This document shows positions 4,846-35,145 of a stretch of DNA of 64,000 bases, piece by piece. The notes beneath the pieces are model-generated. The model ran no database searches. It was not told where the DNA came from and saw only the letters and a program-made list of their open reading frames with translations. Origin of the DNA: Bifidobacterium sp. ESL0690. Lineage in GTDB: Bacteria; Actinomycetota; Actinomycetes; Actinomycetales; Bifidobacteriaceae. Where the stretch lies: NCBI RefSeq assembly GCF_029392315.1, contig NZ_CP113939.1:1302001-1366000 (forward strand), in the 5' to 3' direction. Each line of letters begins with the position of its first letter. The first letter of the stretch is position 1. The position numbers were made by a program, and so were the translations under genes.

Positions 4846-4879
4846 GCCTTTGAGCTTTGCCTGGTAAATAAGCGATTAT

Positions 4880-5181: not shown

Positions 5182-5184
5182 CTC

Positions 5185-5222: not shown

Positions 5223-5226
5223 TCGC

Positions 5227-5280: not shown

Positions 5281-5348
5281 GATCTCACTTGCTACGCCAG
5301 GAATCTAATTAACTTTCTCTGTGGCAATATTCAAAGCTGTTTACCTAC

Positions 5349-5397
5349 CCGCTCGCGGTCGCCACGTTAATACAAAGTTTTGCGTCTTACATAACGT
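5349..5397. repeat. Hairpin 4 of cluster, with 21-bp direct repeat
   Basis: Bases 5349-5369 are an exact copy of bases 5219-5239 (ending in TCGCCACGTTA). The stem here is weaker: ACGTTA at 5364-5369 pairs with TAACGT at 5392-5397. The right arm again reads CTTACATAACGT. Confidence 0.7.
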
Positions 5398-5485
5398 AAC
5401 GCGCTCCTACCATGTTGACAGACTTGGAATATGGCCGCAATAACCGGTCATAGAGTTATTCAGAAATTGTATTCAATTGAAACTA

Positions 5486-6685: not shown

Positions 6686-6729
6686 TTTATCTCTCTTCCT
6701 GTGTTCTTATAATCTCAACTTCTGAAACT

Positions 6730-7338
6730 CTAGTTAGTAAACATCTGATCAATAATTTTTTGTGATTCAATCCCCGTTGGAATGTTAGTGTTTGCGTTAC
6801 AGATAAATTTGTCGATTTTATCTTCTGATCCATAATAAAATAGGGTGATAGAAATCCCGTTCTTCGGAATGATGATTAGCATGCTTCCATTATGTTTACC
6901 GGTTGAAACGTTAACGTTTATATCAATTACGTCTTCACCTTTCAGAACGTCTTTGCCGTTGGTGACAACACTCGCCTCACCGGAATAGCCATTTTTATGC
7001 AACCAATTGATGACTAATGCACCTACCGCCGTACGATCAGGGGTACCGCCTAAGTCTCTGATGTCCGATTGAAGTTTCTTTTGATCCAAGCCACCGTTGA
7101 ACTTTATTCTGAAATTGTTCAGTTTTTTGAATGAAAGTGCCTTAGTCACGTAATCAGCTTTAGGTATTATGTCTGAAACACGCAGATATTGTTGCGATTC
7201 AGCATTAGAATAATATGCTAATTGCACTTTATCATTAGGAAAACCGGTGATATCGAATGAAGGCTTAACAGGTTGTCCCTCTTTCAGCTTGTTTGGATTA
7301 CCCTGCTGAGATTTATTGGAGGTAGCAACATTTTTCAT
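6730..7338 (-). CDS. Paralogous domain protein without membrane anchor, unknown function
   Basis: A 202-residue protein. Residues 107-118 (ALVINWLHKNGY) and the C-terminal NIPTGIESQKIIDQMF match the repeated domain of the protein encoded just downstream. The N-terminal third is polar, with no signal peptide or membrane helix, so it should stay in the cytosol unless exported another way. The ATG at 7338 is preceded by a purine-rich AAGAGAGA. It is 44 bases from the next gene and has the same AT-rich composition, so the two are likely co-transcribed and related by duplication. Confidence 0.75.
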   Translation of the reverse strand: MKNVATSNKSQQGNPNKLKEGQPVKPSFDITGFPNDKVQLAYYSNAESQQYLRVSDIIPKADYVTKALSFKKLNNFRIKFNGGLDQKKLQSDIRDLGGTPDRTAVGALVINWLHKNGYSGEASVVTNGKDVLKGEDVIDINVNVSTGKHNGSMLIIIPKNGISITLFYYGSEDKIDKFICNANTNIPTGIESQKIIDQMFTN

Positions 7339-19802: not shown

Positions 19803-20552
19803 TCATTGAGCGAGTTCGGATTCAAGGTTCGAGACGAGCGTACCGATGGGTTCGCCGACCAAAGCCTTGGTGACATTGCCGGCCTCTTCCAAGCCGAATA
19901 CGCGGATGTGCTGGTCGTTTTCACGGGCCATGGAAAGCGCCGCGGCGTCCATGACGGCGAGGTTGTCGACCAACGCACGCTGGTAGCTCAAGGTCTTGAA
20001 ACGCTTGGCATTCGAATCCTTGCGCGGGTCGGCCGTGTAGATGCCATCGACGCCGTTCTTGCCCATGAGCACGGCATCGCAGTGGATTTCGAGCGAACGT
20101 TGGATGGAGACGGTGTCGGTGGAGAAGTATGGCATACCGGCGCCGGCACCGAAAATGACCACTCGTCCCTTTTCGAGGTGGCGAATGGCCTTCAACGGAA
20201 TATACGGCTCGGCGACCTGGCCCATGGTGATGGCGGTCTGCACGCGGGTGGCCTGTCCTTCCTGCTCGAGGAAGTCCTGCAGGGCAAGGCAGTTCATCAC
20301 GGTGCCGAGCATGCCCATATAATCGCCGCGGCTGCGTTCGATGCCGGCCTGCTGGAGCTCGGCGCCGCGGAAGAAGTTGCCGCCGCCGACGACGATCGCC
20401 ACCTCAACGCCCTGCTCCACGGCCTGGTGGATTTCCTGGGCGATACGGCGAATCACCGCAGTATCGATGCCGATATGGCCGCCCCCGAAAGCCTCACCTG
20501 AAAGTTTCAGCAGCACTCGTCGGGCTGTATCATCCTTACCATCTTTAGTCAT
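19803..20552 (-). CDS. pyrH: Uridylate kinase
   Basis: A 249-residue amino-acid-kinase-fold enzyme phosphorylating UMP to UDP. Visible are [12 protein letters not shown], the [10 protein letters not shown] nucleotide-binding loop, [11 protein letters not shown] and [14 protein letters not shown]. The start has GAGAGG six bases upstream. The 284-base gap to tsf, with a terminator and a TATAAT-like box, suggests that pyrH begins a new transcript that includes frr. Confidence 0.97.
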
Positions 20553-20702
20553 CAGCGGCCTCTCTATCCTTAAATGGCGGCATATTACTGACTAATAGGT
20601 TATCTGTTCACAACGACAGCGACGTTGCCCAAGTCATCGCTTATGAATTGGTTTCAAACGCCGTTTCAGTCTTCATTGACATATTGGGTTGCAAGTTGTC
20701 GG

Positions 20703-20708
20703 ATTATA
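20703..20708 (-). promoter_or_regulatory. Candidate -10 box upstream of pyrH
   Basis: A perfect TATAAT on the minus strand lies about 150 bases before the pyrH start and after the tsf terminator. No good -35 hexamer is visible 17 bases upstream, so the call rests on the -10 and its position. Confidence 0.4.
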
Positions 20709-20757
20709 CAAATATTGACTATCGAATCCGTTTGTCCTGTAGGAATGGACATTGGTA

Positions 20758-20806
20758 TAGAAAAATGTTGGCCAATATCCAAAAACGATACCGACCAACA
20801 TTTTTA
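20758..20806 (-). terminator. Terminator after tsf
   Basis: AAAAATGTTGG and CCAACATTTTT arms face each other around a loop of about 23 bases, starting 30 bases past the tsf stop. T-runs on both ends would let it work in either direction. Confidence 0.6.
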
Positions 20807-20836
20807 TCGAATCAGAAAGCTATGAAAAGCTAAGAA

Positions 20837-21688
20837 TCACTTCTCTTCGCCCTTGCCGACCTCGATGCGAGCGAAAGCGAGCAGCTCACCGCCGGCCTGC
20901 TTGAAGAGATCGCCGACGGACTTGGAGGTGTCCTTGACGTATTCCTGCTCGAGCAAGACATTCTCCTTGTAGAAGGCGTTCATACGGCCTTCCACGATCT
21001 TGGGGATGATCTTCTCGGGCTTGCCTTCGGCCTGGGATTTCTCGGTGGCCACGCGACGCTCGGACTCAACGATATCGGCCGGAACGTCCTCGCGCTTGAG
21101 CCAACGAGCACCCATAGCGGAAATCTGCAGGGCGGCCTCGTGAGCAACAGATGCGCCCTTTTCGTCGGTGGCGACGATGGCTACGATGCTCGGCGGCATC
21201 TCGGCGGACTTCTTGTGCGCGTAGATCTCGACCTTCGGGCCTTCGACCTTGGCCACCTGGCCGACCTTGACATGCTCACCGAAGAGTGCCGCGGCTTCTT
21301 CCACGGTCTCCTTGACGGTACCGTCGTCGGACTTGGCCGCGAGCACCTCGTCGGCGTTGCTTGCGCCGGCCTTGATGGCGTCATCGAGCACACCGTCGGC
21401 GAAGGCGACGAACTTCGGGGTCTTCGCCACGAAGTCGGTCTCGGAATTGAGCTCGACGGCATAGCCGGCCTGGCCGCCCTCGGTGTCGACCACGCGGGAG
21501 GCGATGGTGCCTTCCTGGGCGGTGCGGCCCTCGCGCTTGCCTGCGGCCTGAATGCCCTTGGCGCGGATGATTTCCTTGGCGCGTGCCACGTCGCCTTCGG
21601 CCTCGGTGAGCGCCTTCTTGACGTCCATCATGCCGGCGCCGGTGTCTTCACGGACCTGCTTGATCAAAGCTGCTGTAATTGCTGCCAT
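20837..21688 (-). CDS. tsf: Elongation factor Ts
   Basis: A 283-residue nucleotide-exchange factor for EF-Tu. It has the N-terminal UBA-like region (IKQVREDTGAGMMDVKKALTEAEGD), the exchange core containing ELNSETDFVAKTPKF, and the coiled-coil and C-terminal parts. GGAGATATAC precedes the ATG. It is separated from rpsB by 95 bases that hold a hairpin. Confidence 0.97.
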   Translation of the reverse strand: MAAITAALIKQVREDTGAGMMDVKKALTEAEGDVARAKEIIRAKGIQAAGKREGRTAQEGTIASRVVDTEGGQAGYAVELNSETDFVAKTPKFVAFADGVLDDAIKAGASNADEVLAAKSDDGTVKETVEEAAALFGEHVKVGQVAKVEGPKVEIYAHKKSAEMPPSIVAIVATDEKGASVAHEAALQISAMGARWLKREDVPADIVESERRVATEKSQAEGKPEKIIPKIVEGRMNAFYKENVLLEQEYVKDTSKSVGDLFKQAGGELLAFARIEVGKGEEK

Positions 21689-21729
21689 GTATATCTCCTT
21701 GAAAAATATTAATTGCTAATCAATGCACC

Positions 21730-21769
21730 AAAGGCGGCGCGGAAGCCAGAAGTTTCCGACACCGCCTTT
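21730..21769 (-). terminator. Hairpin between rpsB and tsf, possible attenuator
   Basis: Arms AAAGGCGG and CCGCCTTT, extended by GGAA/TTCC pairing, form a strong stem 15 bases past the rpsB stop. The T-tract on the minus strand is short (TTT), so it may give partial read-through into tsf or protect rpsB mRNA rather than stop transcription fully. Confidence 0.5.
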
Positions 21770-21783
21770 TGCAAGTAATGCTC

Positions 21784-22641
21784 TCAGGCCTTGGCCTCTT
21801 CGACCTTGGTTTCCTCAACCTTGGCTTCTGCGGGGCTGGTCTCGGCGGTAGCCGTTGCATTATCAGCGGGCTTCTCGTTGTCCTTGAGCAAGTCCTTCTC
21901 CCAAGCGGCCATCGGCTGCTCGGACTTGTCTTCGGTCTTTTCGGCCTTGCCGCTGCGCTCGAGCAGGCCGTCGGCGACGGCGTCTGCCATGAGGCTGGTT
22001 AAGAGCTCGATGCCGCGGATGGCGTCATCGTTGGCCGGAATCGGATAGTCCACGAGGTCGGGATCGGTGTTGGTGTCGACGATGGCGACGACCGGGATGC
22101 TCAGCTTGTGGGCTTCCTCAACGGCCAGCGCCTCCTTGTTGATGTCGACGACGAACATGGCCGAAGGCGTGCGGGTCATGTTGCGGATGCCGCCAAGCTG
22201 CTTCTCGAGCTTGTTCTTCTCGCGCTGCAGGAGCAGGAGCTCCTTCTTGGTGAGGCCGGAGCCGTGGACGTCGGTGAAGTCCATCTCTTCCAGTTCCTTC
22301 AGACGCGCGACGCGCTTGGAGACGGTCTGGAAGTTGGTGAGCATACCGCCGAGCCAACGCTCGGAAACATACGGCATGTTGACGCGGGTGGCCTGGGTGG
22401 CGATGGCTTCCTGGGCCTGCTTCTTCGTGCCGACAAAGAGAACGGTGCCGTTGTGGGCCACGGTCTGCTTGATGAAATCGTAGGCCTTGTCGATCAGATC
22501 GAGCGACTTGAAGAGATTGATGATGTGGATGCCGTTGCGTTCCATCAGGATGTACTGCTTCATCTTGGGGTTCCAGCGACGGGTCTGATGGCCGAAGTGC
22601 AGTCCTGCCTTCAGCATTTCGCTCATAGTGATCTGAGCCAT
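21784..22641 (-). CDS. rpsB: 30S ribosomal protein S2
   Basis: A 285-residue S2 protein with the family signatures [19 protein letters not shown] at the N-terminus and [27 protein letters not shown] near residue 200. The C-terminal tail after about residue 240 is long, acidic and rich in Ala, Glu and Lys, as in other bifidobacteria. AAAGGTAG precedes the ATG. It heads the rpsB-tsf pair. Confidence 0.97.
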
Positions 22642-23099
22642 GATAATGCTACCTTTCAGTCGGTTATTGCCTGGCCATGCGGGCCTGCGTGCAACGGTTC
22701 CGCTTCAAAAGCGAATCCGTCGACCGACACAGTCCGTCACGTGCATAGCGCGAATTCGTATGTTTGATTGACAATATTCGTTGGATTCCTCGGCAACGTG
22801 ACCGCTTTGGAATCCGTTTAAACATACGTACTATAAAATACCACGAACAGCGTATAACCGTTCAACCGCAAGCCGCCAGCGAACGGTGCCGGTGGGTTGA
22901 GACGAAACTCGAAGAAATCAGGAATGTGAAATTCCAATCAAATATAAACAATGCTCATTAAAGAGGCAACCGACAAGACTGAAACAGAAACAAAAATATG
23001 GACGCAAGAAAATCATTTCTCACGCCCATATCCATCGCAGTTCTTCATCGTGAGAGGCTGATGACGGCGAAAGCGGTATCAGCCTCAATATCAATTCGA
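22642..23099. other. Intergenic region between the catabolic operon and rpsB
   Basis: A 458-base stretch without a gene. The right part holds a 9-bp inverted repeat (GAGGCTGAT, 23054-23062, with its complement at 23078-23086) and a terminator for the upstream operon. The left part should hold the rpsB promoter and leader. An inverted pair GTATGTTT (22757-22764) and AAACATAC (22822-22829) lies in this leader region. I see no convincing -35/-10 pair. Confidence 0.6.
22992..23031 (-). terminator. Terminator of the DUF917/NCS1 operon
   Basis: On the minus strand ATATGGGCGTGAGAAA pairs with TTTCTTGCGTCCATAT across a four-base loop, with three G-U pairs, and is followed by TTTTTGTTTC. It lies about 70 bases past the stop of the last gene of the operon. 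Confidence 0.75.
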
Positions 23100-24023
23100 T
23101 TATTTCCTGAATCTGCTGAAATCACCATACAGGTCAACGAGGTGACGATATTCATCCTCGTCGTAGAACCGGCAAGACCCGTCGGTATAGGATTTCGCGA
23201 CTTCGACCGCGAATCGTGCAGCCTGCTCGACATCCTCACCGTGTGTGGCTCCCGTGGCACAACCCGCTACAATCTGCTCGACGGCGATGGCGACGCCGAT
23301 GACCGGGGCCGTTGTGGCGATTGCCGGTTGAAGGATGCTGTTGAGGTGATAGAGGTCATTGCCGTACGGGGTGATGTCCTGCTGGCTCAAGGCGAAGACC
23401 TCCGGCATCTTGCCGGTGACCTGCGTCATCAGGTCCATGATGTCATCAGAAACGGGCAAAATTGCTCCGTCCTTGACAGTCGGCGAAATGGCGATGCCGT
23501 TGACGTTGATGACCCTGTTGCCTTTGGTGGTATCGATGGAGAGTATGGCATCCATACGTTCGTCGACTTCCATACGGTTCATAGTGGCCATGTTAATCGG
23601 GGAATTCATGAACGGCACCGGATCGTGCTCGATGGTAGGCGCATCAGGGCAAACGTGGGTGGCCACGATGACGTCGCCTTCAAGCACATCGCCGTTGCGG
23701 TGCATTTCGGCGAGCTTCAGTGCGACCGTCAACGCGGCAAGCGCACCGTCACCGTCGGAAACGGCACCGATGAGCTTGGGACGCGCGCCGACTCCGCCTA
23801 AACGGCCGACGACACCGAGTGTCGGCGCGTCGCCACCTTTGCTTTTACCGCGTGAACCGGGGATGACGACCTTGAGGCAATCGGTGGTCTTCTCCCCCTC
23901 GCCCACGACCTTGACGGTAACGTCGTCGGCTCCGCGGCTGTGCAAGAACCCGGCGACCTCATCACCGTTGGCATCAGGCTTGTCGAGCAGATCGTAGACT
24001 TCCAGCATCTGGCGCAATAGCAT
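23100..24023 (-). CDS. DUF1177 family protein
   Basis: A 307-residue protein that I recognise as DUF1177 from its glycine-rich LGVVGRLGGVGARPKLIGAVSDGDGALAALT region and the VATHVCPDAPTIEHDPVPFM segment. No transmembrane helix or signal peptide is seen. The biochemical role of the family is not known to me; its genes tend to occur with HyuA-type hydantoinases, DUF917 proteins and permeases, as here. It is the last gene of the operon, 32 bases after the HyuA gene, with GGAG upstream of the ATG. Confidence 0.75.
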   Translation of the reverse strand: MLLRQMLEVYDLLDKPDANGDEVAGFLHSRGADDVTVKVVGEGEKTTDCLKVVIPGSRGKSKGGDAPTLGVVGRLGGVGARPKLIGAVSDGDGALAALTVALKLAEMHRNGDVLEGDVIVATHVCPDAPTIEHDPVPFMNSPINMATMNRMEVDERMDAILSIDTTKGNRVINVNGIAISPTVKDGAILPVSDDIMDLMTQVTGKMPEVFALSQQDITPYGNDLYHLNSILQPAIATTAPVIGVAIAVEQIVAGCATGATHGEDVEQAARFAVEVAKSYTDGSCRFYDEDEYRHLVDLYGDFSRFRK

Positions 24024-24055
24024 GATCTTCTCCTTGGTTTATCGTTTCAGCATTT

Positions 24056-25624
24056 TCAGCGTGCAGAACCGGTGCGCAGATCACCTGCGGCCTTGATGCG
24101 CACGCGGCTTGTCTTACCGGGATAATATGCCAGCGGCACATCTTCGGAATCGATGATTTCGACGGTGGATTCGTCGGCACCGGCAGCCACGGCCAATGCT
24201 ATGGCCTCCTTGCGGGCGTTCTCAAGAGCCTGGTCGCGGCCAGTCTTCTCGTAGTCGACCAGCTTTTCGAAGGTTCCGGAAACCTTGGAAATCGCCGAGC
24301 CGATGGCGTTGGCGCAACCCGCGAATTCGGGGCAGGTCACCGACTTGGTGCCGGCAAGATCCTGCGGAAAAATCACAGAACCGCCGCCCACGAGGATGAC
24401 ATCGATCGGATCACTGGAAATCTTCATGGCATCGATGGAGTCTTCGACCATTTCGCGCATGGCGGCCAACGCTTTGTCGGCGGTTTCCTTGCTGATGGAT
24501 TCGGTGAGCTTCGGGTCTCCGATTTCGGCCATACCCAAACGGTCGGCGATATCGGTGGCGGTCATGACGTCACCGCCGAAGCACAAAGCCTTTTCGGTGA
24601 TCTGATAGCCGACGGACTGCGGGCCGACCGTGACACTGCCGTCCTCGTGCTCAGTGACGATGGAGCCGCCGCCAAGGCCGATGGAGATGACATCGGGCAT
24701 ACGGAAGTTGGTACGCACTCCGCCGATATCGACGGCAACACCGGACTCACGTGGGAAGCCGTGCGAGAGCACACCGAAATCAGTGGTCGTGCCACCGACG
24801 TCGATGACGATGGCGTCGTCGCGACGGGTCAGGTAGCTCGCGCCTCGAATGGAGTTGGTGGGGCCGCAGGCAATGGTGAGAATCGGGTAACGACGTGCGT
24901 TCTCGATGGTCATCAGGGTGCCGTCATTCTGCGAAAGGTAGACATCGGCGTTGACGATGCCCTTTTGCTTGAGGCTATGTGCAAAACCTTCGGTGAAGCG
25001 CTGTGCGACCTGGTTCAAGGCCGCGTTGAGGATTGTCGCGTTCTCGCGCTCGACAAGACCCATGGAACCGATTTCGCTGGAAAGCGAGATCGGGAAGTCC
25101 TCCCCCAGAATCTCGTGAGCGATGGCCGCGGCACGTACCTCATCATCGTTGCGCATCGTGGAGAATACACAGGAAATCGCCAAGGCGTCGACCTTGCCCT
25201 TGATTTTGTTGAGGAAGGCCCTGCAGGCATCCTCGTCGAATTGTGCAAGGCGCTTGCCGTTGAACTCAAAGCCTCCGCCGATGATCGTCCAATCCACGCA
25301 CACGGCGCGAATCGAATCGTCCCAGTCGACCATTGGAGGAATCCCCTCTGTTGCTGGGGCTCCGATACGCAGGATGGCCACAGGTGAAAGCCCCTTGCGC
25401 TGCACGATGGCATTGGTGCACTGGGTGGTGCCGAGCATGGCCTGATCAATAAGGCCGGCATCGACCTTGGACTCATCGAGCACGGCATCCACCGAGTTGA
25501 GAATGCCTTCGTAAACATCCTCGCTGGTATGTCTCTTGACGGCAGCGAGCACCTTCATGTTCTCATCGATAACCACCGCATCGGTATTGGTTCCGCCGAC
25601 GTCGATTCCTAACTTGTAATGCAT
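24056..25624 (-). CDS. HyuA-type hydantoinase/oxoprolinase family protein
   Basis: A 522-residue ASKHA-fold ATPase. The phosphate-binding loop LGIDVGGTNTDAVVID is at the N-terminus (Hydant_A_N), and the second IVIDVGGTTTDFGVL loop is at about residue 275 (Hydantoinase_A). Relatives use ATP to open or form five-membered lactam rings (5-oxoprolinase, N-methylhydantoinase A). No HyuB partner gene is present in the operon, which is unusual for a classical hydantoinase. I start at the ATG at 25624 because AAGGA lies eight bases upstream; the GTG at 25630 is too close to it. Confidence 0.85.
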   Translation of the reverse strand: MHYKLGIDVGGTNTDAVVIDENMKVLAAVKRHTSEDVYEGILNSVDAVLDESKVDAGLIDQAMLGTTQCTNAIVQRKGLSPVAILRIGAPATEGIPPMVDWDDSIRAVCVDWTIIGGGFEFNGKRLAQFDEDACRAFLNKIKGKVDALAISCVFSTMRNDDEVRAAAIAHEILGEDFPISLSSEIGSMGLVERENATILNAALNQVAQRFTEGFAHSLKQKGIVNADVYLSQNDGTLMTIENARRYPILTIACGPTNSIRGASYLTRRDDAIVIDVGGTTTDFGVLSHGFPRESGVAVDIGGVRTNFRMPDVISIGLGGGSIVTEHEDGSVTVGPQSVGYQITEKALCFGGDVMTATDIADRLGMAEIGDPKLTESISKETADKALAAMREMVEDSIDAMKISSDPIDVILVGGGSVIFPQDLAGTKSVTCPEFAGCANAIGSAISKVSGTFEKLVDYEKTGRDQALENARKEAIALAVAAGADESTVEIIDSEDVPLAYYPGKTSRVRIKAAGDLRTGSAR

Positions 25625-25626
25625 AA

Positions 25627-26724
25627 TCACTTTCCTTTGCGTTGTGAACGTTCTTCTACCGGGATGTAGTCAGTGTCGAGACCGAAGTATCGTGGGCCGA
25701 CCAGCTTGAGACCTTCTTCGGTGCGCCACTGCGGAGCGCAGGGCAGGCCCGCGACCAACACGCGCTTGCCGTATTTCACGGCCTCGTTCGGCACTGGTGT
25801 GTAGGTATCGTGGTCGACCAAGCAGATCAGATCGGGAGCGGTGGCGACGATGTCCCCATCGACCTCGCATTTGAGGTTCTCGTTCTGATAGGTCACGGAG
25901 GCCTCATGTCCCTTGTCCGAACCGATGCCGGCAAGCACCACCTTGCCGTAGTTGAAGGCGCCGCGCGTCTCACGAAGTACATCGGTGACCTTGCCGCTGA
26001 ACAGCCTGACACCGTGGGTCAGATCGAGGAAGCGCTGTTCGATACCCTTGGAATCCTCGCCTTCCTTGATGGAACGGATGGAACGGCCCAATTCCTGCGA
26101 CATGGTGACGATATTGGGCACGCACCAGTCACGGCACTTCTTGGCACTCATCGTATACTGGCAGGTCATGACCTGGCCGCCGACGGTGTTGGTGATGGAG
26201 CGGACGATGTCTTCAGTCCATTTGTTGGAGATGTTGTGCATCACACCGACGTTGCCCTTTTCGTCGCTATACGCCAATGGCGAGGACGAGACACCGCCGA
26301 TGGTGAAGGTGACCATCTGCAATTCCGGGAATGCACGGCCCATGCCGTCTGCGTCGACGACGGGAAGGCCACGACGGGCACCCGCGACGATCGGCAGCAT
26401 GGAGTTGACGCCACCGGCTTCGATGGGCATGGTCGCGTAGATCTTTTTGCCGGTCTCGCGTTCCATACGGTCGAAAAGACGATTGAAATCATCCTTGCCG
26501 CCGCCCTTTTCGGTCATCACCGTAGGAGCGCCGACCATGGCGCAAGGGGCGACGAATGCATCGTCAGGGATTTCCTCTGGTTCAATCAGAGTCACCGGGC
26601 CGCATTCCTTGACTGCCTGTATGGCGAGCAGACGACCGATATAAGGGTCGCCTCCACCGCCGGCACCAAGCAATGAGGCTCCCAAAGCGATATCGTTGAT
26701 TTCATCAATACCGATGGTTCTCAT
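25627..26724 (-). CDS. DUF917 (S-methyl-thiohydantoin desulfurase-like) protein A
   Basis: A 365-residue soluble protein with the N-terminal family signature DIALGASLLGAGGGGDPYIG and the VVDADGMGRAFPE segment. DUF917 has been renamed after S-methyl-thiohydantoin desulfurase, and in some organisms the domain is fused behind HyuA domains, which supports a joint role with the adjacent HyuA protein. The stop is two bases from the preferred hyuA start, so translation is probably coupled. It is a paralogue of the next protein upstream; both may form a hetero-oligomer. Confidence 0.8.
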   Translation of the reverse strand: MRTIGIDEINDIALGASLLGAGGGGDPYIGRLLAIQAVKECGPVTLIEPEEIPDDAFVAPCAMVGAPTVMTEKGGGKDDFNRLFDRMERETGKKIYATMPIEAGGVNSMLPIVAGARRGLPVVDADGMGRAFPELQMVTFTIGGVSSSPLAYSDEKGNVGVMHNISNKWTEDIVRSITNTVGGQVMTCQYTMSAKKCRDWCVPNIVTMSQELGRSIRSIKEGEDSKGIEQRFLDLTHGVRLFSGKVTDVLRETRGAFNYGKVVLAGIGSDKGHEASVTYQNENLKCEVDGDIVATAPDLICLVDHDTYTPVPNEAVKYGKRVLVAGLPCAPQWRTEEGLKLVGPRYFGLDTDYIPVEERSQRKGK

Positions 26725-26770
26725 TTATTTCCTGCCTTTCGAACATTTTCAAGATTCATTGTGCCTTCCT

Positions 26771-27868
26771 CTAAAGCTCGGATTGGATTGAGTCGAAGGG
26801 GATGTAATCGAGGTCGTAACCGAACCAGCGCGGTCCGGCCAGGTCGATGCCGGCCTGCGTATGCCAGACCTTGTCGGCTTCCAAGACGAGCAACAGAACA
26901 CGCTTGCCGTACTTCAGATTTTCGGTGGTCACCGGGGTGAAGGTGTCGGCATCCACCATGCAGATCAGATCCGGAACGGTGGCGACAGCCTTGCCGTCAA
27001 GGTAGGCAATCAGGTTTTCGTTCTGGAACTCCACGGCGGCCTGATGTCCGCGGGAGGAACGGATGCCTTCGAGCTTGGCCAGGCCGTAGTTGAATCCGCC
27101 TTTCGTTTCACGGGTCACGTCGGCAATCTTTGCCTCGATGATGCCTTTGGCCTTCATCTTTTTCAGGAATGCCTCGCGAGGTGTGACGCCTTCTTCGTCG
27201 GCGATTTCCTTGATGGTGCGGATGGTGCGGCCGATGAAACGTGCCTTGGTGAGCGAATCTCGGACGGCGGCCCGTTTCATCGTCTTGCCGCTCATCAGCT
27301 GGCCGAGGGCGATGCCCTGACCGCCCATTGCGTCGACGGCCGCCCTGCCAAGGTTCTCCATCCAGTCGTTGTCGATGGTGGTGAGCATCGCGACATTGCC
27401 TTTTTCGTCCGCGAAGGCCATCGGCCAGGTATGGACGCCGGCGATATTATACGAATCCTGCTGCAAGCCCGGGAAGGCGCGACCCATGCCGTCCACGTTG
27501 ACCAGCGGGATGCCGGCCACGGCCGAAGCGGCAACGGGGATGACCGAGTTCATGCCGCCTATTTCGGAGAGCACGAACGCGTTGAGGCTGTGACCCGTCT
27601 GTTCCTTCATGGCTTTGAGCAGATTGGGGAATTCGCATCCGTTGATGCCCTTTTCCGCCATTACGCTGGGCGCTCCGACACCGCCGATGGTGGCGACAAT
27701 CCAATCGTCAGGCACCTCTTCGGCGTCGTAGAGATCGATGCTGCCCACCTTTTCCAAGGCCTGACGTGCGATCAGGCTTCCCCCATAGGGGTCGCCTCCA
27801 CCGCCGGCTCCCAATAAGGAGGAACCGAGAGCGATATCGGGAATATCAGAAGAAACCAATTTTTGCAT
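26771..27868 (-). CDS. DUF917 (S-methyl-thiohydantoin desulfurase-like) protein B
   Basis: A 365-residue paralogue of the neighbouring DUF917 protein. It shares DIALGSSLLGAGGGGDPYGG, VGAPSVMAEKG, LVNVDGMGRAFPG and the C-terminal PDLICMVDADTFTPVT with it. I use the ATG at 27868, which has AGGT seven bases upstream. The GTG at 27877 would overlap the preceding permease gene. Only one base then separates it from the permease stop, indicating tight coupling of uptake and metabolism. The substrate is unknown. Confidence 0.8.
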   Translation of the reverse strand: MQKLVSSDIPDIALGSSLLGAGGGGDPYGGSLIARQALEKVGSIDLYDAEEVPDDWIVATIGGVGAPSVMAEKGINGCEFPNLLKAMKEQTGHSLNAFVLSEIGGMNSVIPVAASAVAGIPLVNVDGMGRAFPGLQQDSYNIAGVHTWPMAFADEKGNVAMLTTIDNDWMENLGRAAVDAMGGQGIALGQLMSGKTMKRAAVRDSLTKARFIGRTIRTIKEIADEEGVTPREAFLKKMKAKGIIEAKIADVTRETKGGFNYGLAKLEGIRSSRGHQAAVEFQNENLIAYLDGKAVATVPDLICMVDADTFTPVTTENLKYGKRVLLLVLEADKVWHTQAGIDLAGPRWFGYDLDYIPFDSIQSEL

Positions 27869-27869
27869 T

Positions 27870-29249
27870 TCATTCACCTTTGCGAGTCAATTGAATGGCG
27901 CCGGGGAATGCCGGCAGTTTCATGGCCTTGTATACCAAGACGTAAAGCAAAATCGAGACCACGATGCCGTTGACCGGCCCGAGGAAGAATGGGTGGTCAA
28001 GGAACGAGAGGGCAGGCACCGAAGCGAACGTGCCGCCGGTTATCAACGCGACGATGGAACCGCCGATGAACGAGACCAGACCGGGAACCGAGAACCCATC
28101 GAGTGGCTTGAAGTTTTCCGGACGCGCCTTGCGCACCAGCCAGTAGTCGGCGATCATGGCTCCTGCCAAGGCCGGAATCATCGCGGAAAGCACGGTGAGG
28201 AAGAGCTGGAAATAGTCCATGATGCCAGCCACCGCGAGGATGATGCCCAATATGCCCGAGATGGTCGTGGAGACCTTGTAGCCTTTGTCGCCCTTGTCTG
28301 CGATGACGGCAAATGCAAGCCCTGCGGAATAGGCATTGCTCACGTTGACGGACCAGGTGGACATGACCAGCGCGATCAGTGCCAATCCGGCCAATCCCAT
28401 GGAGGCCATGATCTTGGAGATGTCGCCGCCTGATTCGGGCTTGACGATGGCGAGCATCGCTCCCATCACCAGAAGAATGACCATCGGAGGCCAGATGCCG
28501 ATGATGCTGGAGAGCACCGCACCCTTACGGTCCTTGGCGTACCTCGAAAAGTCCCCGACCGTCGCCCCACCGACAGCGAAGAAACCGACCGCGATATTGA
28601 TGCCGGCGACCAGACCGATGCTCTGCTTGGGCACGTAGGAGAAAAGACTGGACATGCCAGTGGTGGACACGGAAGTGAAAAGCCCGTATACACAAATGAT
28701 GAAGAGCAGCGGCGCGGCGATATAGTTGACCCATTTGACACCATCGAAGCCAAGAACCGCGGTGATTAGCATCAGCAGGCCCAATACAATCTCGCAAATC
28801 TGTGGTGAGATCGACCAGCCGAATTTGGCGGCCATCAGCGAGAAGGACGAGCCACAGACGGCCGCCTGAACGCTGAACCAGCCGATAAGGCTGATGCCGA
28901 TGATGATGGAGATGACGTAGCGGCCACCCTTGCGGCCCAGAGCCGCTGACGACATGGCCGAGGTCGGCAGGCCGGTGTCGGTGGCTTCCATAGCCACGAA
29001 GCACATGTAGGCCTCGATGATGCCGAATCCGATCAGCGCCGCCAGGAAGGCGTCGCGCAGAGTCAGCCCTGCGCCTAGAATCGCGCCGGTCATCAGTGTC
29101 GATACATTAATCGACTGGCCTATCCAGATCAGCGCGATTGACCACCAATTTCTTCTTTGATTTTGAGGCACATACAGACTGTTTTCCTTATATTCCGCCT
29201 CTGAGCCCTCCGAGGAATCAATTCCCGGCTGGGCTGACGTCGTCGTCAT
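27870..29249 (-). CDS. NCS1-family nucleobase/hydantoin permease
   Basis: A 459-residue protein with about 12 hydrophobic helices and NCS1 features resembling CodB: ALIWIGQSINVSTLMTGA near the start, IGWFSVQAAVCG in the third helix region, VGDFSRYAKDRKG, and MSTWSVNVSNAYSAGLA. NCS1 carriers import cytosine, purines, allantoin or hydantoins with a cation. It ends one base before the DUF917-B start. It is the second permease of the operon and differs clearly from the first. Confidence 0.85.
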   Translation of the reverse strand: MTTTSAQPGIDSSEGSEAEYKENSLYVPQNQRRNWWSIALIWIGQSINVSTLMTGAILGAGLTLRDAFLAALIGFGIIEAYMCFVAMEATDTGLPTSAMSSAALGRKGGRYVISIIIGISLIGWFSVQAAVCGSSFSLMAAKFGWSISPQICEIVLGLLMLITAVLGFDGVKWVNYIAAPLLFIICVYGLFTSVSTTGMSSLFSYVPKQSIGLVAGINIAVGFFAVGGATVGDFSRYAKDRKGAVLSSIIGIWPPMVILLVMGAMLAIVKPESGGDISKIMASMGLAGLALIALVMSTWSVNVSNAYSAGLAFAVIADKGDKGYKVSTTISGILGIILAVAGIMDYFQLFLTVLSAMIPALAGAMIADYWLVRKARPENFKPLDGFSVPGLVSFIGGSIVALITGGTFASVPALSFLDHPFFLGPVNGIVVSILLYVLVYKAMKLPAFPGAIQLTRKGE

Positions 29250-29289
29250 GAAGATACTGCTCCTTTTTATAAAATAATGTGACTTATTA

Positions 29290-29307
29290 TTGTTTACTTA
29301 TTAACAA
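29290..29307. repeat. Short inverted repeat inside the operon
   Basis: TTGTT and AACAA are separated by eight bases in the 88-base gap between the nitrilase and the second permease. It may be an operator half-site pair or an mRNA processing hairpin. It is short enough to be chance. Confidence 0.25.
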
Positions 29308-29337
29308 CAGATGCGATAATTCCGATCATGTGCGGCT

Positions 29338-30150
29338 TCAGGGAAGCAGCACATCCTGATAGAGTTCCGGACGTCGGTCGCGCAGATAAGGACTGGTCTG
29401 GCGGTTGGAGACCACCTTGGCCAAGTCGATGTCGACGCTCAGCACATCTTCCTTCTGCTCCTCAAGCTCGGCGATGACACGCCCGCGCGGATCGCAAACC
29501 CGGCTGTGGCCGCCCATATAAAGGTCCTGTTCCCGACCGTACCGATTGACCGCGGCGAGGAAAACCGTGTTTTCCAAAGCCCGGGCGGGGGTGTTGATGT
29601 TCCAGATGTCGTTATCCGGTTCGCACCAGGCCGAGGGACAGATTACAATTTGCGCGCCTTTGAGCGCCAACTCGCGTGCGACCTCGGGGAATCCCATGTC
29701 GTAGCAGATCATCAGGCCGACAGTGCCGAAGTCGGTATGGAAAACCGGCGTGCCGTTGCCGCCTTTGAAGTAGAAGCGTTCCTTGGCCCACAGATGCTGC
29801 TTGTCGTAGACCCCGGCGATATTGCCGTCCCGGTCGATCAGCACCGAACTGTTGAACGGAACACCAGGCAGGTCGTCGTGATAGAGCGCGATGGAAGCGA
29901 CGACGTAGACCCTAGCCTTGCGCGCCGCCTCCCTCATCGCAGTGATGCTGGGACCATCGAGAGGCTCGGCAAGTTCGGTGATACGAGGACCGACCACATC
30001 GAGCTGGTAGCCGGTGCTGAACAGTTCGGGAAACACGATGATGTCCGCGTCCTGCTCTCCTGCAGCCTCGATAAGTTTCAATGCCTTGGCGACATTGGCT
30101 TTGGTGTCGCACAGTACGCTTTCGAACTGTGACAATACGATTTTCGCCAT
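29338..30150 (-). CDS. Nitrilase-superfamily carbon-nitrogen hydrolase
   Basis: A 270-residue enzyme with the full catalytic triad Glu42 (FPELFSTGY), Lys117 (YDKQHLW) and Cys149 (MICYDMGFPE). It resembles the amidase/N-carbamoyl-amino-acid hydrolase side of the superfamily more than true nitrilases. In this operon it could hydrolyse the open-chain amide or ureido product of ring opening; that is inference. It lies 22 bases after the first permease and 88 bases before the second. Only a weak ribosome binding site is seen. Confidence 0.85.
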   Translation of the reverse strand: MAKIVLSQFESVLCDTKANVAKALKLIEAAGEQDADIIVFPELFSTGYQLDVVGPRITELAEPLDGPSITAMREAARKARVYVVASIALYHDDLPGVPFNSSVLIDRDGNIAGVYDKQHLWAKERFYFKGGNGTPVFHTDFGTVGLMICYDMGFPEVARELALKGAQIVICPSAWCEPDNDIWNINTPARALENTVFLAAVNRYGREQDLYMGGHSRVCDPRGRVIAELEEQKEDVLSVDIDLAKVVSNRQTSPYLRDRRPELYQDVLLP

Positions 30151-30172
30151 GCTTAAGCCCCGCTGTGTCTCT

Positions 30173-31588
30173 TCAGAGGACCTGGCTGGTGTGGGCGAAC
30201 TCGATGGTCTTCACGCCCTTGACCTTGGCCATGATCTCCATGACCACCCAGTACAACAACGCGGAGATGATCAACGAATTGAGTCCGGGAATGCCGATGG
30301 AATAGATGCTTGTGATTTCACCGATCGCGAAGCCCAAGACCCAGACAATCAGGGACACCGGATTCCATTTTTCAACGCTGGAAGGCAGCGTGCCGGATGC
30401 ACGCGTCGCTTCGAGATCCTTGCGTCCCTGACGACGGAGAATGTAGTAGTCGATGACCATGATGCCGGCAACCGGCGGAACCGCGACGCCCAGCAACGTC
30501 AGGAAGTTGGTGAAGTACTTGAGGATGCCGATTACGGAGAGGAAGGTTCCCACGATGCCCAGGCTCCAGACGAGGACGTTACGGTTGAGCTTGCGGTTGA
30601 ACACGGCATTGATCATGGTGGAAAGCCCAAGCGAAGAAGAATACAGGTTGATGTCGTTGAGCTTGACCGTCGAGGTGATGACGATGATTACACCGACGAT
30701 TCCCGAGGTCTTCATCATCATGTCGACCACATTGTTGGTGCCGGTGGCGTGGGCCAGAAGCACTGCCAGAAGGTTCATGCCCAACTCGCCGACGAACGTA
30801 CCGATCAGAGTCATCCAGAAGACCTGCTTGCCGTTCTTGAGATAACGGCCATAATCGGGTGTAGCAATCGCTCCGGCAATGAATCCGCCGGTTACCATCG
30901 TCGTGGCCGCGCCAAGCGAAAGCGCCGGGCCAGGGGCGGGAGAAGTGAACAGCGTCATGAACGGAGTGGACTGGAAGACATGGAATGACGCGTAAAGCAC
31001 GACGATGATGAACAGCGGCACCAGCACGGTTGCGAAATCGGCAATCGCATTGACTCCGAAGACCACGAGCAAGGTAATGGCCAGGCCGGTTACAATCGAC
31101 CAGCCAGGCGTTTCGAACTTCCCCAGAAAATCGGTGAACGGGATGATGCTGGAAAGACCATTACCGAAAACCGAATTCTGAACGCCGAACCAGCCGACCA
31201 TGGAAATGGCCATCACCCCGCCGAAAATGGCTGAGCCCATTTTGCCGAAACCTGTCCAGCGAGACAGAAGACTGGTGGAAAGTCCTTCGCGTGCGGCTGC
31301 GGTACCGAGCGCCCAGCTGATGATTTCAAGAAGTACCGAACCGAGCATCGTGGCCCAGAACGCACCCCAGAACGTCATGCCATAACCCAGGGCCGCACCG
31401 AGCACCAGCTGGGAGACGCAGCAAATGCTGCCGATACGGATCAGCAATATTTTCCAGAACGGTTTTTTCGCGTGGGCAGGTACTCTTGAAAGCGTGTAAT
31501 CGTTGTCTTCGACGACCCCTTCTGAGCTGCTTTTTGATATATTCTCAGGCTGTGTGCCTGGCGTGTTTGATTTTTGAGCTGAAGACAT
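30173..31588 (-). CDS. NCS1-family cytosine permease-like transporter
   Basis: A 471-residue membrane protein, the first gene of the operon. It has about 12 helices with the NCS1 pattern: LVLGAALGYGMTFWGAFWATMLG, MVGWFGVQNSVFGNGLS, TPDYGRYLKNGKQVF and NDINLYSSSLGLS. It is closer to CodB-type carriers by motif but has no diagnostic substrate residue that I can use. AAAGGT lies eight bases before the ATG. A promoter-like region with an 8-bp inverted repeat precedes it. Confidence 0.85.
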   Translation of the reverse strand: MSSAQKSNTPGTQPENISKSSSEGVVEDNDYTLSRVPAHAKKPFWKILLIRIGSICCVSQLVLGAALGYGMTFWGAFWATMLGSVLLEIISWALGTAAAREGLSTSLLSRWTGFGKMGSAIFGGVMAISMVGWFGVQNSVFGNGLSSIIPFTDFLGKFETPGWSIVTGLAITLLVVFGVNAIADFATVLVPLFIIVVLYASFHVFQSTPFMTLFTSPAPGPALSLGAATTMVTGGFIAGAIATPDYGRYLKNGKQVFWMTLIGTFVGELGMNLLAVLLAHATGTNNVVDMMMKTSGIVGVIIVITSTVKLNDINLYSSSLGLSTMINAVFNRKLNRNVLVWSLGIVGTFLSVIGILKYFTNFLTLLGVAVPPVAGIMVIDYYILRRQGRKDLEATRASGTLPSSVEKWNPVSLIVWVLGFAIGEITSIYSIGIPGLNSLIISALLYWVVMEIMAKVKGVKTIEFAHTSQVL

Positions 31589-31632
31589 CCCCTCATACCT
31601 TTCTTCTCAAAAGAGTGCCGAAACACCGAATT

Positions 31633-31664
31633 CGCATTATTAAGCAATCGATATGCATAATGCG
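31633..31664. promoter_or_regulatory. Candidate operator upstream of the catabolic operon
   Basis: CGCATTAT (31633-31640) and ATAATGCG (31657-31664) form an inverted repeat with half-sites 24 bases apart centre to centre, 45-76 bases upstream of the first permease start. This is a usual place and form for a dimeric regulator site; no regulator gene is in the operon. Confidence 0.4.
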
Positions 31665-31699
31665 GAAACAATAAAATGCACTTTTAAAAAAATATCATA

Positions 31700-31728
31700 A
31701 ATGCAAATGAAACTAGGCATTGTGTCAA
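31700..31728 (-). promoter_or_regulatory. Candidate promoter of the catabolic operon
   Basis: On the minus strand TTGACA (31723-31728) is followed after 17 bases by TGCATT (31700-31705). The -35 is perfect and the -10 poor. The surrounding region is AT-rich and lies between def and the first permease. Confidence 0.4.
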
Positions 31729-31861
31729 AATCTGAAATAATTAATAGATTTTTTATCCAAAACTGTATAAAAAGATGAAAATTATTTGTTTGCCTATAAG
31801 GTTTAGGAAAATATGGCCAGATATCGAAACAGCTGAATACTGTGAAGGCCGTGCTTGGCAA

Positions 31862-31901
31862 AAATCTGCCCCCAAAATGACGACTTGTCACACTGGGGGC
31901 A
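31862..31901 (-). terminator. Terminator after def
   Basis: On the minus strand TGCCCCCA and TGGGGGCA pair around a 19-base loop and are followed by GATTTTTG. A second perfect 10-bp hairpin (TTGCAATCTG, 31904-31913, with CAGATTGCAA, 31926-31935) lies between it and the def stop. Confidence 0.7.
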
Positions 31902-31945
31902 AATTGCAATCTGCTCTCTTTTCTTCAGATTGCAAACATATCCTG

Positions 31946-32428
31946 CTAATTCAGGGATCGCATGCGGCGCATGGCCTCGCGGCGTTCTTCCTTTTCAAGG
32001 CGATCGAGGTAAATGTGCCCGTCGAGATGATCGGTTTCGTGCTGGAGCATGCGGCCCATGATGCCGGTGCCTTCCACGACGATGGTCTTGCCGTCGAGAT
32101 TGATGCCGCGAACACGGGCGTAATCGGCGCGACGGGTCTTGTACCAGAGTTTGGGAACCGAAAGGCAGCCTTCGTCGCCGTACTGCTCTCCCCTGGTCTC
32201 TTCGATGACCGGGTTCAGGACGTAACCGAGTTTGCCGTCGATGTTGTAGGAGAAAGCGCGCAGGCTGATGCCGATCTGGTTTGCTGAAAGTCCCGCGCGA
32301 CCGGGATCATCGACCGTATCCAGCAAATCCTGCACCATGTTGCGCACCGCGGGGGTGATCTCGCGAATCGGTTCACACGGGGTTCTCAACACCGGATCGG
32401 GCACGACCCTTATTTCTCGTAACGCCAA
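31946..32428 (-). CDS. def: Peptide deformylase
   Basis: A 160-residue enzyme that removes the formyl group from nascent proteins. All three motifs are present: GLSANQ (residues 46-51, where GLAAxQ is more usual), EGCLSVP with metal ligand Cys88, and QHETDHLDG with ligands His130 and His134 and catalytic Glu131. It is 32 bases downstream of the acyl-CoA ligase gene. Confidence 0.95.
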
Positions 32429-32460
32429 TGCACTGCTCCTCTTGATGCCTTAACGGCTGT

Positions 32461-34506
32461 TTACTTCTGGTCCGGCAAGTCTTTTCCTTCGGCATCAGCC
32501 TTTGGAGCTTTCTTCCAAGGATCCTCGCCCTCACGCTCGGCGTCATGCCCAGCCTCGTGTTCGGCAAGGCGGGCTCCGACATTCTGCTTGGCCTGTTCGT
32601 AGGCCTCGCGAACCTTCGGAGTGGCCTGACGCATGGATTCAGTGGTCTTGTCGATGAATCCTGCGGTGGCCGACGGTGCCGGCTTGACTCGCGTCTTAGG
32701 AGTATAGACCTGCGTGTTGATGAGATCGGCATAGTGTTTCAGGACCTCGCCACGCACGACCTTCATGCTCGGGGTAAGCATGCCGTTCTCCTGAGTGAAC
32801 TGATCTTCGACGATGACGAACTTGCGCACGGATTCGGCGCGGGAAACCGAGCTGTTGGCCTGGTCGATATATTGCTGGACGTAGGCACGAACCGCATCGT
32901 TCTTGCAGATTTCGGCCATCGGCATGTTTTCATCCATGCCGTTGTTGGCAAGCCACGAACGCACCATTTCGGGGTCGAGTTCGATAAGCGCCGCGATGAA
33001 GGGGCGGCCGTCGCCGATGACCACGGCGTGGGAAACGATCGGGCAGGTGCCGATGGTGTCTTCCATCGGGGCAGGGCTCACGTTCTTGCCGCCGGCAGTG
33101 ATGATGATGTCTTTCTTACGGCCGGTGATGTAGACGAAGCCGTCGTCGTCGATCTGCGCGATGTCGCCGGAATGGACCCAACCGCCCGGTTCCTTGGCTT
33201 CGGCGGTAAGTTCGGGCTGTTTGTAGTAGCCCAGGAAAACGTCCTCGCCGTTAATGAGCAGCTCATCGTCATCGGCAAGTTTGACGGCGATGCCGGTGCC
33301 CGGACGCCCGACGGCCCCGACCTTGTTGAAGTCTTGGAAGGCTACGATGCAGGGCGCGGCGGTTTCTGTCATGCCGTAACCCTGGATGAAGGTGATTCCG
33401 TCCATGCCGTTGAAGAAGTGCGCCAGATCGGCGTTCATCGGAGCACCGCCGCAGGCGACATACTTGAGGTTCGGGCCCAAGGCACTGCGCACCGAGGCTC
33501 CGACGGTCTTCATATAGAACTTGTGTTCCAGACGCTCGGCAAGGGTGTGTCCGCGCCCTTCCTGTCCGTCCTTCGACCACTTGACGAAATGTTTGAACGC
33601 CATGTTGAAGATGCGGCCCTGCAATCCGGCACCGGCTTTCTGTGAAGCGGCGTTGTAGACCTTCTCGAACACACGCGGGACGCCGAGCAGATAGGTCGGC
33701 TTGAACGTGCGCAGATCGGTCAGGAGATGCTTGGCGCTTGGCGTATAGCCGACAACACCCTGAGCGCCGATGGCGACGTATTGGATGTATCTGGCGAAGC
33801 AATGTGCCAACGGCAGGAAGAGCAACAATCGGCTCGGCTGGTAGAGCATATCATCGAGCACGGCCCAGCCGATGAATGTCGTGGAAACGAAATTGCGATG
33901 CGAAAGCATGACACCCTTGGGTGCACCGGTAGATCCGGAGGTGTAGACGATGGTCAGCATGTCGTCGGCACGCACGCGCGAAATGGCCTCATCAAGCTCT
34001 TCGTCGCTTACCGAAGTGCCGAAATCGGAGACGGCTTCAAGTCCGCCCTCTTGTAGGTTGAACACGTATTTGAGACCGTCACGGTCACGGCGGAATTCCT
34101 CAAGCGTCTGGGTGTGTTCCGCATCTCCGCCGAAAGCGACGATCGGGTCGACGTCCTCGACGATGCCCTTGGCCTGCTTGGGCGAATCCGTTTCGTAAAT
34201 CGGCACGCTCACCGCACCGATGGCAGCGCAAGCGAAATCGACCACTCCCCATTCGTAGCTGGTGGCGGCGTAGATGACGACCATGCTTCCGGCCTTGGCT
34301 CCCAGCCCGATGAGACCCTTGGCGACCTTGCGTACGCGCTCAAGCATTTCACCGGCGGTGACGGTGTGCCATTGCTGGGTATCCTCATCGAGCCATTCGG
34401 CTATGGTTCCGTCCGGGTCCTTTCCGGCTCGCTTGGACAACAGGGAATAGATGGTGTCCTTATCGGTGGTTTTGGTGACAGGATCCAAATAGAATTCTCG
34501 CAACAT
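32461..34506 (-). CDS. fadD: Long-chain acyl-CoA ligase (AMP-binding)
   Basis: About 681 residues from the ATG at 34506; the upstream TTG at 34569 adds residues that do not look conserved. The AMP-binding P-loop YTSGSTGAPKGV, the GYGMTETAAPC motif and GWVHSGDIAQIDDDGFVYITGRKKD are complete, so the enzyme should activate fatty acids via acyl-AMP. The C-terminal 80 residues after the ligase fold are charged and rich in Ala, Lys and Glu. It lies just upstream of def. Bifidobacteria do not oxidise fatty acids, so a role in lipid uptake or recycling is more likely. Confidence 0.9.
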   Translation of the reverse strand: MLREFYLDPVTKTTDKDTIYSLLSKRAGKDPDGTIAEWLDEDTQQWHTVTAGEMLERVRKVAKGLIGLGAKAGSMVVIYAATSYEWGVVDFACAAIGAVSVPIYETDSPKQAKGIVEDVDPIVAFGGDAEHTQTLEEFRRDRDGLKYVFNLQEGGLEAVSDFGTSVSDEELDEAISRVRADDMLTIVYTSGSTGAPKGVMLSHRNFVSTTFIGWAVLDDMLYQPSRLLLFLPLAHCFARYIQYVAIGAQGVVGYTPSAKHLLTDLRTFKPTYLLGVPRVFEKVYNAASQKAGAGLQGRIFNMAFKHFVKWSKDGQEGRGHTLAERLEHKFYMKTVGASVRSALGPNLKYVACGGAPMNADLAHFFNGMDGITFIQGYGMTETAAPCIVAFQDFNKVGAVGRPGTGIAVKLADDDELLINGEDVFLGYYKQPELTAEAKEPGGWVHSGDIAQIDDDGFVYITGRKKDIIITAGGKNVSPAPMEDTIGTCPIVSHAVVIGDGRPFIAALIELDPEMVRSWLANNGMDENMPMAEICKNDAVRAYVQQYIDQANSSVSRAESVRKFVIVEDQFTQENGMLTPSMKVVRGEVLKHYADLINTQVYTPKTRVKPAPSATAGFIDKTTESMRQATPKVREAYEQAKQNVGARLAEHEAGHDAEREGEDPWKKAPKADAEGKDLPDQK

Positions 34507-34599
34507 AGATTCAACTATACGCAACCGTAACCCCAATGCTACGTTAGCGTAACTTTTAATACAATCCAATAATTACAGGTATCAGGCTTATTCTCCGAA

Positions 34600-35145
34600 T
34601 CAACCGAGGTCAGCAGTGGTGCAAATCCATCGCGAACCGCTGCGGTGGAACACCAGCGTGACCCAGTAGGTCGACTTGCCTACGCATAGGCTGACGACTG
34701 TCTCGGTGGTATCGGGACTCACGAGCGTCGTGTATACCAGCATCGGTACGGCGGGAAGATAGCAGAGCTTGGCCTTTAGCTCCTGATGCGTGCGCAGATG
34801 GTTCTCCAACAGGTACGACATTGTTTCGAGACGTTGCACACAAGGGCCGCTTAGGGAATGCTGCAGCGTCTGCGGTGGCGTGCGTCCACGCACCACGTCC
34901 AGGCTCATACATGCCAGCCTGCACGAATTGAGGCTGGACTTGCGACATTCCGCTTCGCTAAGCGTTCCCGGATAACAGCGTGAAATATGGTATGGGACGG
35001 GCCGATTCGACAATTCGATGCGGATGGACCCGTCGTAAGTGGGCAATCCTGATTGCTGTGTGACCACCATCTGTTGCGGGTGCGTCTTCATACTCGACGG
35101 CTCTTGTGTCAGCGTCTGCGATCGTCCTTGTCTCTTTTCGTTCAT
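34600..35145 (-). CDS. Conserved actinobacterial protein, DUF6459-like
   Basis: A 181-residue protein from the ATG at 35145, chosen because GGAGGT lies six bases upstream; an in-frame codon at 35244 has no such site. The C-terminal half has the pattern of a small actinobacterial family often found near secA: a helical region followed by a beta-rich part ending in RWICTTADLG, close to the RWxCTAxxLG ending I associate with DUF6459. There is no signal peptide. Function is unknown. A strong leader hairpin lies upstream. Confidence 0.65.
   Translation of the reverse strand: MNEKRQGRSQTLTQEPSSMKTHPQQMVVTQQSGLPTYDGSIRIELSNRPVPYHISRCYPGTLSEAECRKSSLNSCRLACMSLDVVRGRTPPQTLQHSLSGPCVQRLETMSYLLENHLRTHQELKAKLCYLPAVPMLVYTTLVSPDTTETVVSLCVGKSTYWVTLVFHRSGSRWICTTADLG

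Follow-up and report, generated by a model that had tools for sequence, protein, structure and literature searches.

A seven-gene operon with a short HyuA and two DUF917 proteins in Bifidobacterium sp. ESL0690, a candidate acquired cassette for the catabolism of a cyclic amide or ureide

The closest described relatives of the enzyme considered here are the ATP-dependent hydantoinases and oxoprolinases, a class that includes the HyuA/HyuB N-methylhydantoinase, 5-oxoprolinase, caprolactamase (CapAB) and acetophenone carboxylase. We describe a seven-gene operon encoding a short HyuA in a window of 64,000 nucleotides (positions 1,302,001 to 1,366,000 of contig NZ_CP113939.1) from Bifidobacterium sp. 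ESL0690, whose genome of 2.64 Mb is assembled as one contig; all coordinates given are those of the window. The window HyuA (24056..25630, minus strand, 524 aa from a GTG start, though 522 aa in a record of this protein from a relative) resembles the class in having Pfam domains PF05378 and PF01968 together with both phosphate motifs, DVGGTNTD at position 10 and DVGGTTTD at position 277, and its sequence matches N-methylhydantoinase and 5-oxoprolinase structures (7hk5, 6yra and 5l9w). It differs in its shortness, since no match was found to Hydant_A_C (PF19278), which is present in the canonical HyuA of locus L131. HyuB (PF02538) was found in none of six genomes, the source genome included (controls were positive in 6 of 14), and DUF917 proteins stand in the partner's place.

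Three other systems are comparable. The classical hydantoin pathway, which consists of the Mhp1 permease, hydantoinase, carbamoylase and racemase, shares with the operon the logic of an NCS1 permease, a ring-opening enzyme and a nitrilase-fold amidase, but the operon has neither a metal-dependent hydantoinase nor a racemase and its permeases are nearer to CodB than to Mhp1. The NCS1-DUF917-HyuA cassettes of lactobacilli and other Bacillota, found on plasmids too, have the same core genes; in PMC7513527, cytosine permease, DUF917 and hydantoinase/oxoprolinase are product names among strain-variable genes. A PucR or sigma-54 regulator lies by 15 of 28 such cassettes whereas the window operon has none, and neither a nitrilase-fold gene nor DUF1177 was found near any of the 28. 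Finally, the thiohydantoin and S-methyl-thiohydantoin desulfurases belong to the DUF917 family and have the same two Pfam domains as the window proteins, which score far below the equivalog cut-offs of both.

The seven open reading frames all lie on the minus strand and are transcribed in the order NCS1a, NIT, NCS1b, D917a, D917b, HyuA and DUF1177. Their family assignments pass the Pfam cut-offs throughout, which confirms the gene set described in the first-pass annotation. Besides HyuA, the products are the NCS1 permeases (PF02133) NCS1a (30173..31588, 471 aa) and NCS1b (27870..29249, 459 aa), the nitrilase-fold (CN_hydrolase, PF00795) protein NIT (29338..30150, 270 aa), the DUF917 proteins (PF06032 and PF20906) D917a (26771..27877, 368 aa), a diverged duplicate, and D917b (25627..26724, 365 aa), and a DUF1177 protein (23100..24023, 307 aa). 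We give a probability of about one half to the reading that these genes form an acquired catabolic cassette in which import by NCS1 permeases would be followed by ATP-dependent ring opening by HyuA and DUF917 and by hydrolysis by NIT and perhaps DUF1177.

Pairing of the short HyuA with DUF917

A DUF917 gene was observed within 500 nt and on the same strand in 53 of 54 short HyuA genes of at least 40% identity, the exception being L216. This set excludes the two Bifidobacterium operons, and part of it was chosen by DUF917 or DUF1177. A fairer sample came from Bacillota searched with HyuA alone, where 33 of 348 genomes were positive at 36 places; DUF917 was next to the short HyuA in 27 of the 28 places examined (in 26 genomes). 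Near these 28 genes, with neighbour families named from one representative per group, we also observed NCS1 on the same strand (18 cases), a sigma-54 activator (11), a racemase (9), PucR (4), an M29-like gene (3) and HyuB (2). The earlier description of a lone HyuA is thus correct as regards HyuB, but the usual neighbour of a short HyuA is DUF917. In L040, L131, L132, L136, L234 and L236 (the first three were checked with Pfam) the short pair has HyuB-like genes and longer HyuA-like genes as neighbours, and both kinds of HyuA therefore coexist. A DUF917-HyuA fusion, at first suspected in L133, was not found in a search of the open reading frames of loci L005-L138. In L215, L218, L219, L220, L222, L231 and L238, a divergent unit beside NCS1-DUF917-HyuA contains a sigma-54 activator and a distant second DUF917 (29-32% identity), and in several of these loci a protein of some 425 aa that lacks annotation comes next.

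The pair is also found on plasmids, where 121 records match HyuA, all with less than 60% identity, and nine stretches were read. As an example, a conjugative Pediococcus plasmid carries PucR, a cytosine permease, DUF917 and a hydantoinase, a Parageobacillus plasmid has a doubled set of the NCS1-DUF917-HyuA type with a sigma-54 regulator, and on an Arsenophonus plasmid DUF917-HyuA adjoins a cytosine permease. ABC transporters instead of NCS1 lie by HyuA-DUF917 on the plasmids of Rhizobium, Aureimonas, Haloferax, Ensifer and Alloyangia, and the Shinella plasmid has OPT, AroM, racemase and M20 genes there. The HyuA-DUF917 core is a widespread module, of which the window operon is a horizontally acquired and recombined variant.

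The two DUF917 proteins of the operon are not equivalent. D917a has Asn and Gly where all 62 of the other DUF917 rows keep Asp and Glu, and D917b is likely to be the active copy, with D917a a diverged partner whose activity has changed or been lost. The AlphaFold model of D917b (pLDDT 89.4) had one match in the PDB at E <= 0.001, the uncharacterised protein 2o3i. We tentatively propose, as a possibility to be taken seriously, that short HyuA together with DUF917 represents a so far uncharacterised kind of ATP-dependent cyclic amidohydrolase in which DUF917 replaces the hydrolytic subunit HyuB and, in this operon and its relatives in Coriobacteriia, the duplicated D917a, with its two otherwise invariant acidic residues lost, acts as a non-catalytic or re-specialised partner.

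Insertion site and mosaic ancestry

The seven-gene set is rare in Bifidobacteriaceae, where DUF1177 was found in two and DUF917 in three of 189 genomes, the source genome being counted in both. When four sister loci were aligned to the window with blastn, homology was observed to end at 22848 (22824 in L141) and to restart at 31959. The sister loci hold 185-214 nt in place of 9.1 kb and the operon is absent from all four. Because they run from rpsB to def without these 9.1 kb, the stretch at 22849..31958 is best read as an insertion, and its loss in every sister is less likely. A search of 61 Bifidobacterium genomes with rpsB gave 30 loci. Leaving aside the locus of the window itself, 26 of 29 have def no more than 1.5 kb from rpsB. 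The three others are L145 (genome G099), with def about 4.3 kb away, L155, which is a short stretch, and L150. The sister genome G099 has a different insertion between rpsB and def (L240, G099:C1:738001-748000, 3201-6891) with two ABC exporter-like genes. The rpsB-def site may be an insertion hotspot. Base composition was tried as a signal of acquisition and gave no sign of it, the G+C content of the operon (55-59%, GC3 71-75%) being close to that of def and fadD (58-59%, 72-73%), and no nucleotide-level relatives of the 9.1 kb were found among plasmids.

A second species, B. miconisargentati (genome G061, locus L005), has all seven genes, arranged as in the window operon, with 74-85% protein identity. 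Upstream of its operon are genes for a relaxase of the MobA/VirD2 type and for a type IV secretion coupling protein, the latter stopping some 300 nt short of NCS1a; downstream is a DUF4143 AAA protein, and def is on another contig. The relaxase and coupling-protein genes just upstream of the operon were located at 4832-9486 of L239 (G061:C36:116001-130000). These surroundings suggest that a conjugative or mobilisable element is the vehicle of the operon in B. miconisargentati. With the empty site in the sister loci and the mobile surroundings in the second species, the operon is a horizontally acquired cassette. The co-occurrence check proposed for the whole set was passed in this second Bifidobacterium, and parts of the set recur elsewhere, but the full set is not general, since NIT and DUF1177 do not accompany HyuA in the Bacillota sample. 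Furthermore, metagenome clusters related to HyuA and D917b, with 82-87% identity, have up to 657 members, and the operon is therefore not limited to two Bifidobacterium genomes. A 450-aa relative of HyuA (P0136, 78% identity) has a truncated label that begins 'Bifidobacterium adoles', and the cassette may occur in a human-gut species too. In another genus of the family, a genome that is 76% complete has NCS1-DUF917-HyuA without NIT or DUF1177 (L138, G188:C10:1-12000, 1998-6125), flanked by ParA-like and NAD-kinase-like genes.

In a phylum-wide sample, a relative of D917b was found in 18 of 396 genomes, the source genome included, and this led to a family labelled f27, which we take to be Eggerthellaceae from the genera of the named close HyuA relatives (these include Gordonibacter, Raoultibacter, Slackia and Rubneribacter). 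Seven f27 genomes were examined, in which some stretches stop at contig ends, and two modules were observed. Module A consists of NCS1b, D917a (in four of the seven genomes), D917b and HyuA in the order of the window. Module B consists of a HyuA and a DUF917, both of another clade. All seven stretches also have DUF1177 and an M29-like gene there, while NIT is present in six and NCS1a in five. The modules are at separate places in five of the seven genomes and side by side in the near-identical L124 and L125. A molybdenum hydroxylase (xanthine-dehydrogenase-like) beside module B, guessed from gene lengths, was rejected, as the three proteins checked in L127 are ClpB-like, DnaJ and MerR-type and the one checked in L126 is GrpE.

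The trees place the window proteins with different modules. HyuA (9 rows, 100/98), NCS1b (9 rows, 100/99) and D917b (14 rows, 100/95) group with module A, and D917a forms a 6-row clade (100/100) within the same 20-row group as D917b (100/100). NCS1a groups with module B (8 rows, 100/100). In a quick tree DUF1177 groups with copies from Atopobiaceae and Coriobacteriaceae (10 rows, SH-aLRT 95), apart from the copies in module B of f27 and in L045, a Coriobacteriaceae metagenome-assembled genome. The NIT tree (13 rows) is weak, with the Bifidobacterium pair at 80/75 and a wider placement that is unsettled. Judged from these trees, the operon joins parts of at least three lineages, namely the module-A block, the NCS1a of module B and a DUF1177 of a third lineage. 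HyuA, NCS1b, D917a, D917b and NCS1a thus have their nearest sampled relatives outside Bifidobacterium in the f27 modules or in L045, whereas the window operon has its module-A block enclosed by NCS1a-NIT on one side and DUF1177 on the other and lacks the HyuA, DUF917 and M29-like gene of module B, and its DUF1177 is of another lineage. A different HyuA-DUF917 accompanies NCS1a, NIT and DUF1177 in f27 and L045, and the DUF1177 copies in these associations have three separate positions in the tree. That these genes have come together with HyuA-DUF917 repeatedly is the strongest hint of a common pathway.

Transcriptional layout

The spacings between successive genes, from NCS1a to DUF1177, are 22, 88, -8, 46, -4 and 32 nt, and a single transcript for all seven genes is plausible from this arrangement. 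The gaps of 1 to 88 nt given by the first-pass annotation are right at their maximum, but two of the junctions overlap. The terminator that it placed after the last gene is borne out by a hairpin 3' of DUF1177 (22994..23033, minus strand), in which an 18-pair stem with five G-C pairs is followed by a T-rich tail; the other nine terminator-like sites listed for the region have 5-8 pairs, and the ten sites are no excess over the shuffle mean of 11.0. Its plausible promoter before the first gene was not recovered. A sigma-70 scan gave no minus-strand match upstream of 31588, and no promoter or conserved motif was identified in the leader region upstream of NCS1a (31589..31958, minus strand), where comparison with the B. 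miconisargentati counterpart revealed no evident common motif. Rfam at its gathering threshold matched nothing in 20500-34600.

Proposed pathway and alternative explanations

Both permeases have the CodB cytosine permease (7qoa) as their best PDB match, and the Mhp1 hydantoin permease was matched by NCS1b only, weakly (E 2.8e-5). By family, the two would import a small cyclic amide or ureide. The short HyuA would then activate a ring carbonyl with ATP, and DUF917, in place of the missing HyuB, would complete the ring opening, as its near-obligate pairing with HyuA suggests. NIT has Glu42, Lys117 and Cys149 at the places of the nitrilase Glu-Lys-Cys catalytic triad, and would next hydrolyse the exposed carbamoyl or amide group. 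It scores below every NCBIfam equivalog cut-off (165 bits for N-carbamoylputrescine amidase, against 410.25). Lastly, DUF1177, whose fold is of the aminopeptidase type, may cut a remaining amide bond, so that the end products would be ammonia, CO2 and an amino acid. The NCS1, PucR, racemase and HyuAB neighbours of related genes point more to a hydantoin-like compound or another cyclic ureide as substrate. Of the route put forward in the first-pass annotation, import of a heterocycle, ATP-dependent ring opening and hydrolysis of an amide or carbamoyl group remain the best-supported outline, with relatives of the core near PucR, Asp/Glu/hydantoin racemases or HyuA and HyuB, while the desulfurisation that it offered as an alternative is disfavoured.

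Several observations weigh against this outline. NIT and DUF1177 are missing near all 28 Bacillota HyuA genes, and no DUF917-HyuA fusion was found among the open reading frames of L005-L138. In other taxa, HyuA-DUF917 occurs with quite different transporters (Opp-type or other ABC), so the substrate may differ. The DUF917 fold had no hydrolase match in the PDB, the sigma-70 scan was negative, and no activity is described for the HyuA-DUF917 pair or the operon in the openly licensed literature.

The strongest competing explanation, which we hold to be unlikely though it merits attention, is that HyuA-DUF917 uses ATP to open a 2,5-diketopiperazine (cyclic dipeptide) or a comparable cyclised peptide and that DUF1177 and NIT process the linear product. 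It draws on DUF1177, which has an aminopeptidase-type fold (that of M42/M28/M20 metallo-aminopeptidases). DUF1177 is linked to peptidases by fold comparison alone because sequence searches found no relation: its profile gave two chance matches to one unrelated protein in the PDB at E up to 10, and hhalign probabilities against the M20, M20b and M18 groups were 1.3, 0.7 and 0.2%. In neighbourhoods of DUF1177 (L006-L085; the best 80 of 593 related loci were covered), the most frequent neighbours were M20 peptidases, Opp-type ABC transporters and AroM, whose cluster is present in 50 of the 85 loci, and this company hints at a function of the family connected with peptides. DUF1177 relatives also adjoin OPT transporters and M18, M29-like and S51 peptidases. 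HyuA-DUF917 itself pairs with Opp genes in L135, L136 and L225, lies by an M24 prolidase-like gene in L132, L219, L235 and L236, and has a dipeptidase and an isoaspartyl peptidase near one plasmid pair. In addition, PMC11055893 reports that cyclodipeptide-oxidase gene clusters are enriched in PF01177 racemases, DUF917 and AroM, but its authors themselves suggest hydantoin or allantoin chemistry. The transporter in the window and in most close relatives is an NCS1 protein closest to CodB, and a PucR regulator accompanies the nearest HyuA relatives outside Coriobacteriia (4 loci); both argue against the cyclic peptide.

It is less probable still that the operon is a chance assembly in which HyuA, DUF917 and NCS1b form one pathway and NCS1a, NIT and DUF1177 merely travel along and serve some other function. 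The different ancestry of the parts, the separation of modules A and B in most f27 genomes and the Bacillota cassettes without NIT and DUF1177 are all consistent with it, but two Bifidobacterium species share the interleaved order, with module A between NCS1a-NIT and DUF1177, although the operon has different surroundings in each, and the same three genes have joined another HyuA-DUF917 in f27 and L045 with DUF1177 copies of three origins in the tree. We regard as very improbable a role of DUF917 as a thiohydantoin or S-methyl-thiohydantoin desulfurase in an ergothioneine-type breakdown, with HyuA opening the resulting hydantoin. The Pfam name of the family is S-Me-THD-like, both proteins pass both domain cut-offs and their best NCBIfam models are the thiohydantoin desulfurases, but their scores are 97 and 71 bits against a cut-off of 440 and 85 and 64 bits against one of 450. 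Urocanase and aromatic lyase are the families of the upstream enzymes of the ergothioneine pathway, and neither had a match in the source genome (controls were positive in 5 of 14 for each). No such gene was seen in the loci of 55 tabulated relatives, though no search aimed at such genes was made.

The pairing of short HyuA with DUF917 in 27 of 28 cases and the empty insertion site make the proposed cassette for ring opening testable. If the proposal is true, many genes annotated merely as 'hydantoinase/oxoprolinase family' and 'DUF917' would encode one two-part, directly assayable enzyme, and DUF917 would gain a role. A gut Bifidobacterium would then have gained a nitrogen source through uptake of a cassette already assembled by recombination, with parts similar to Coriobacteriia modules.

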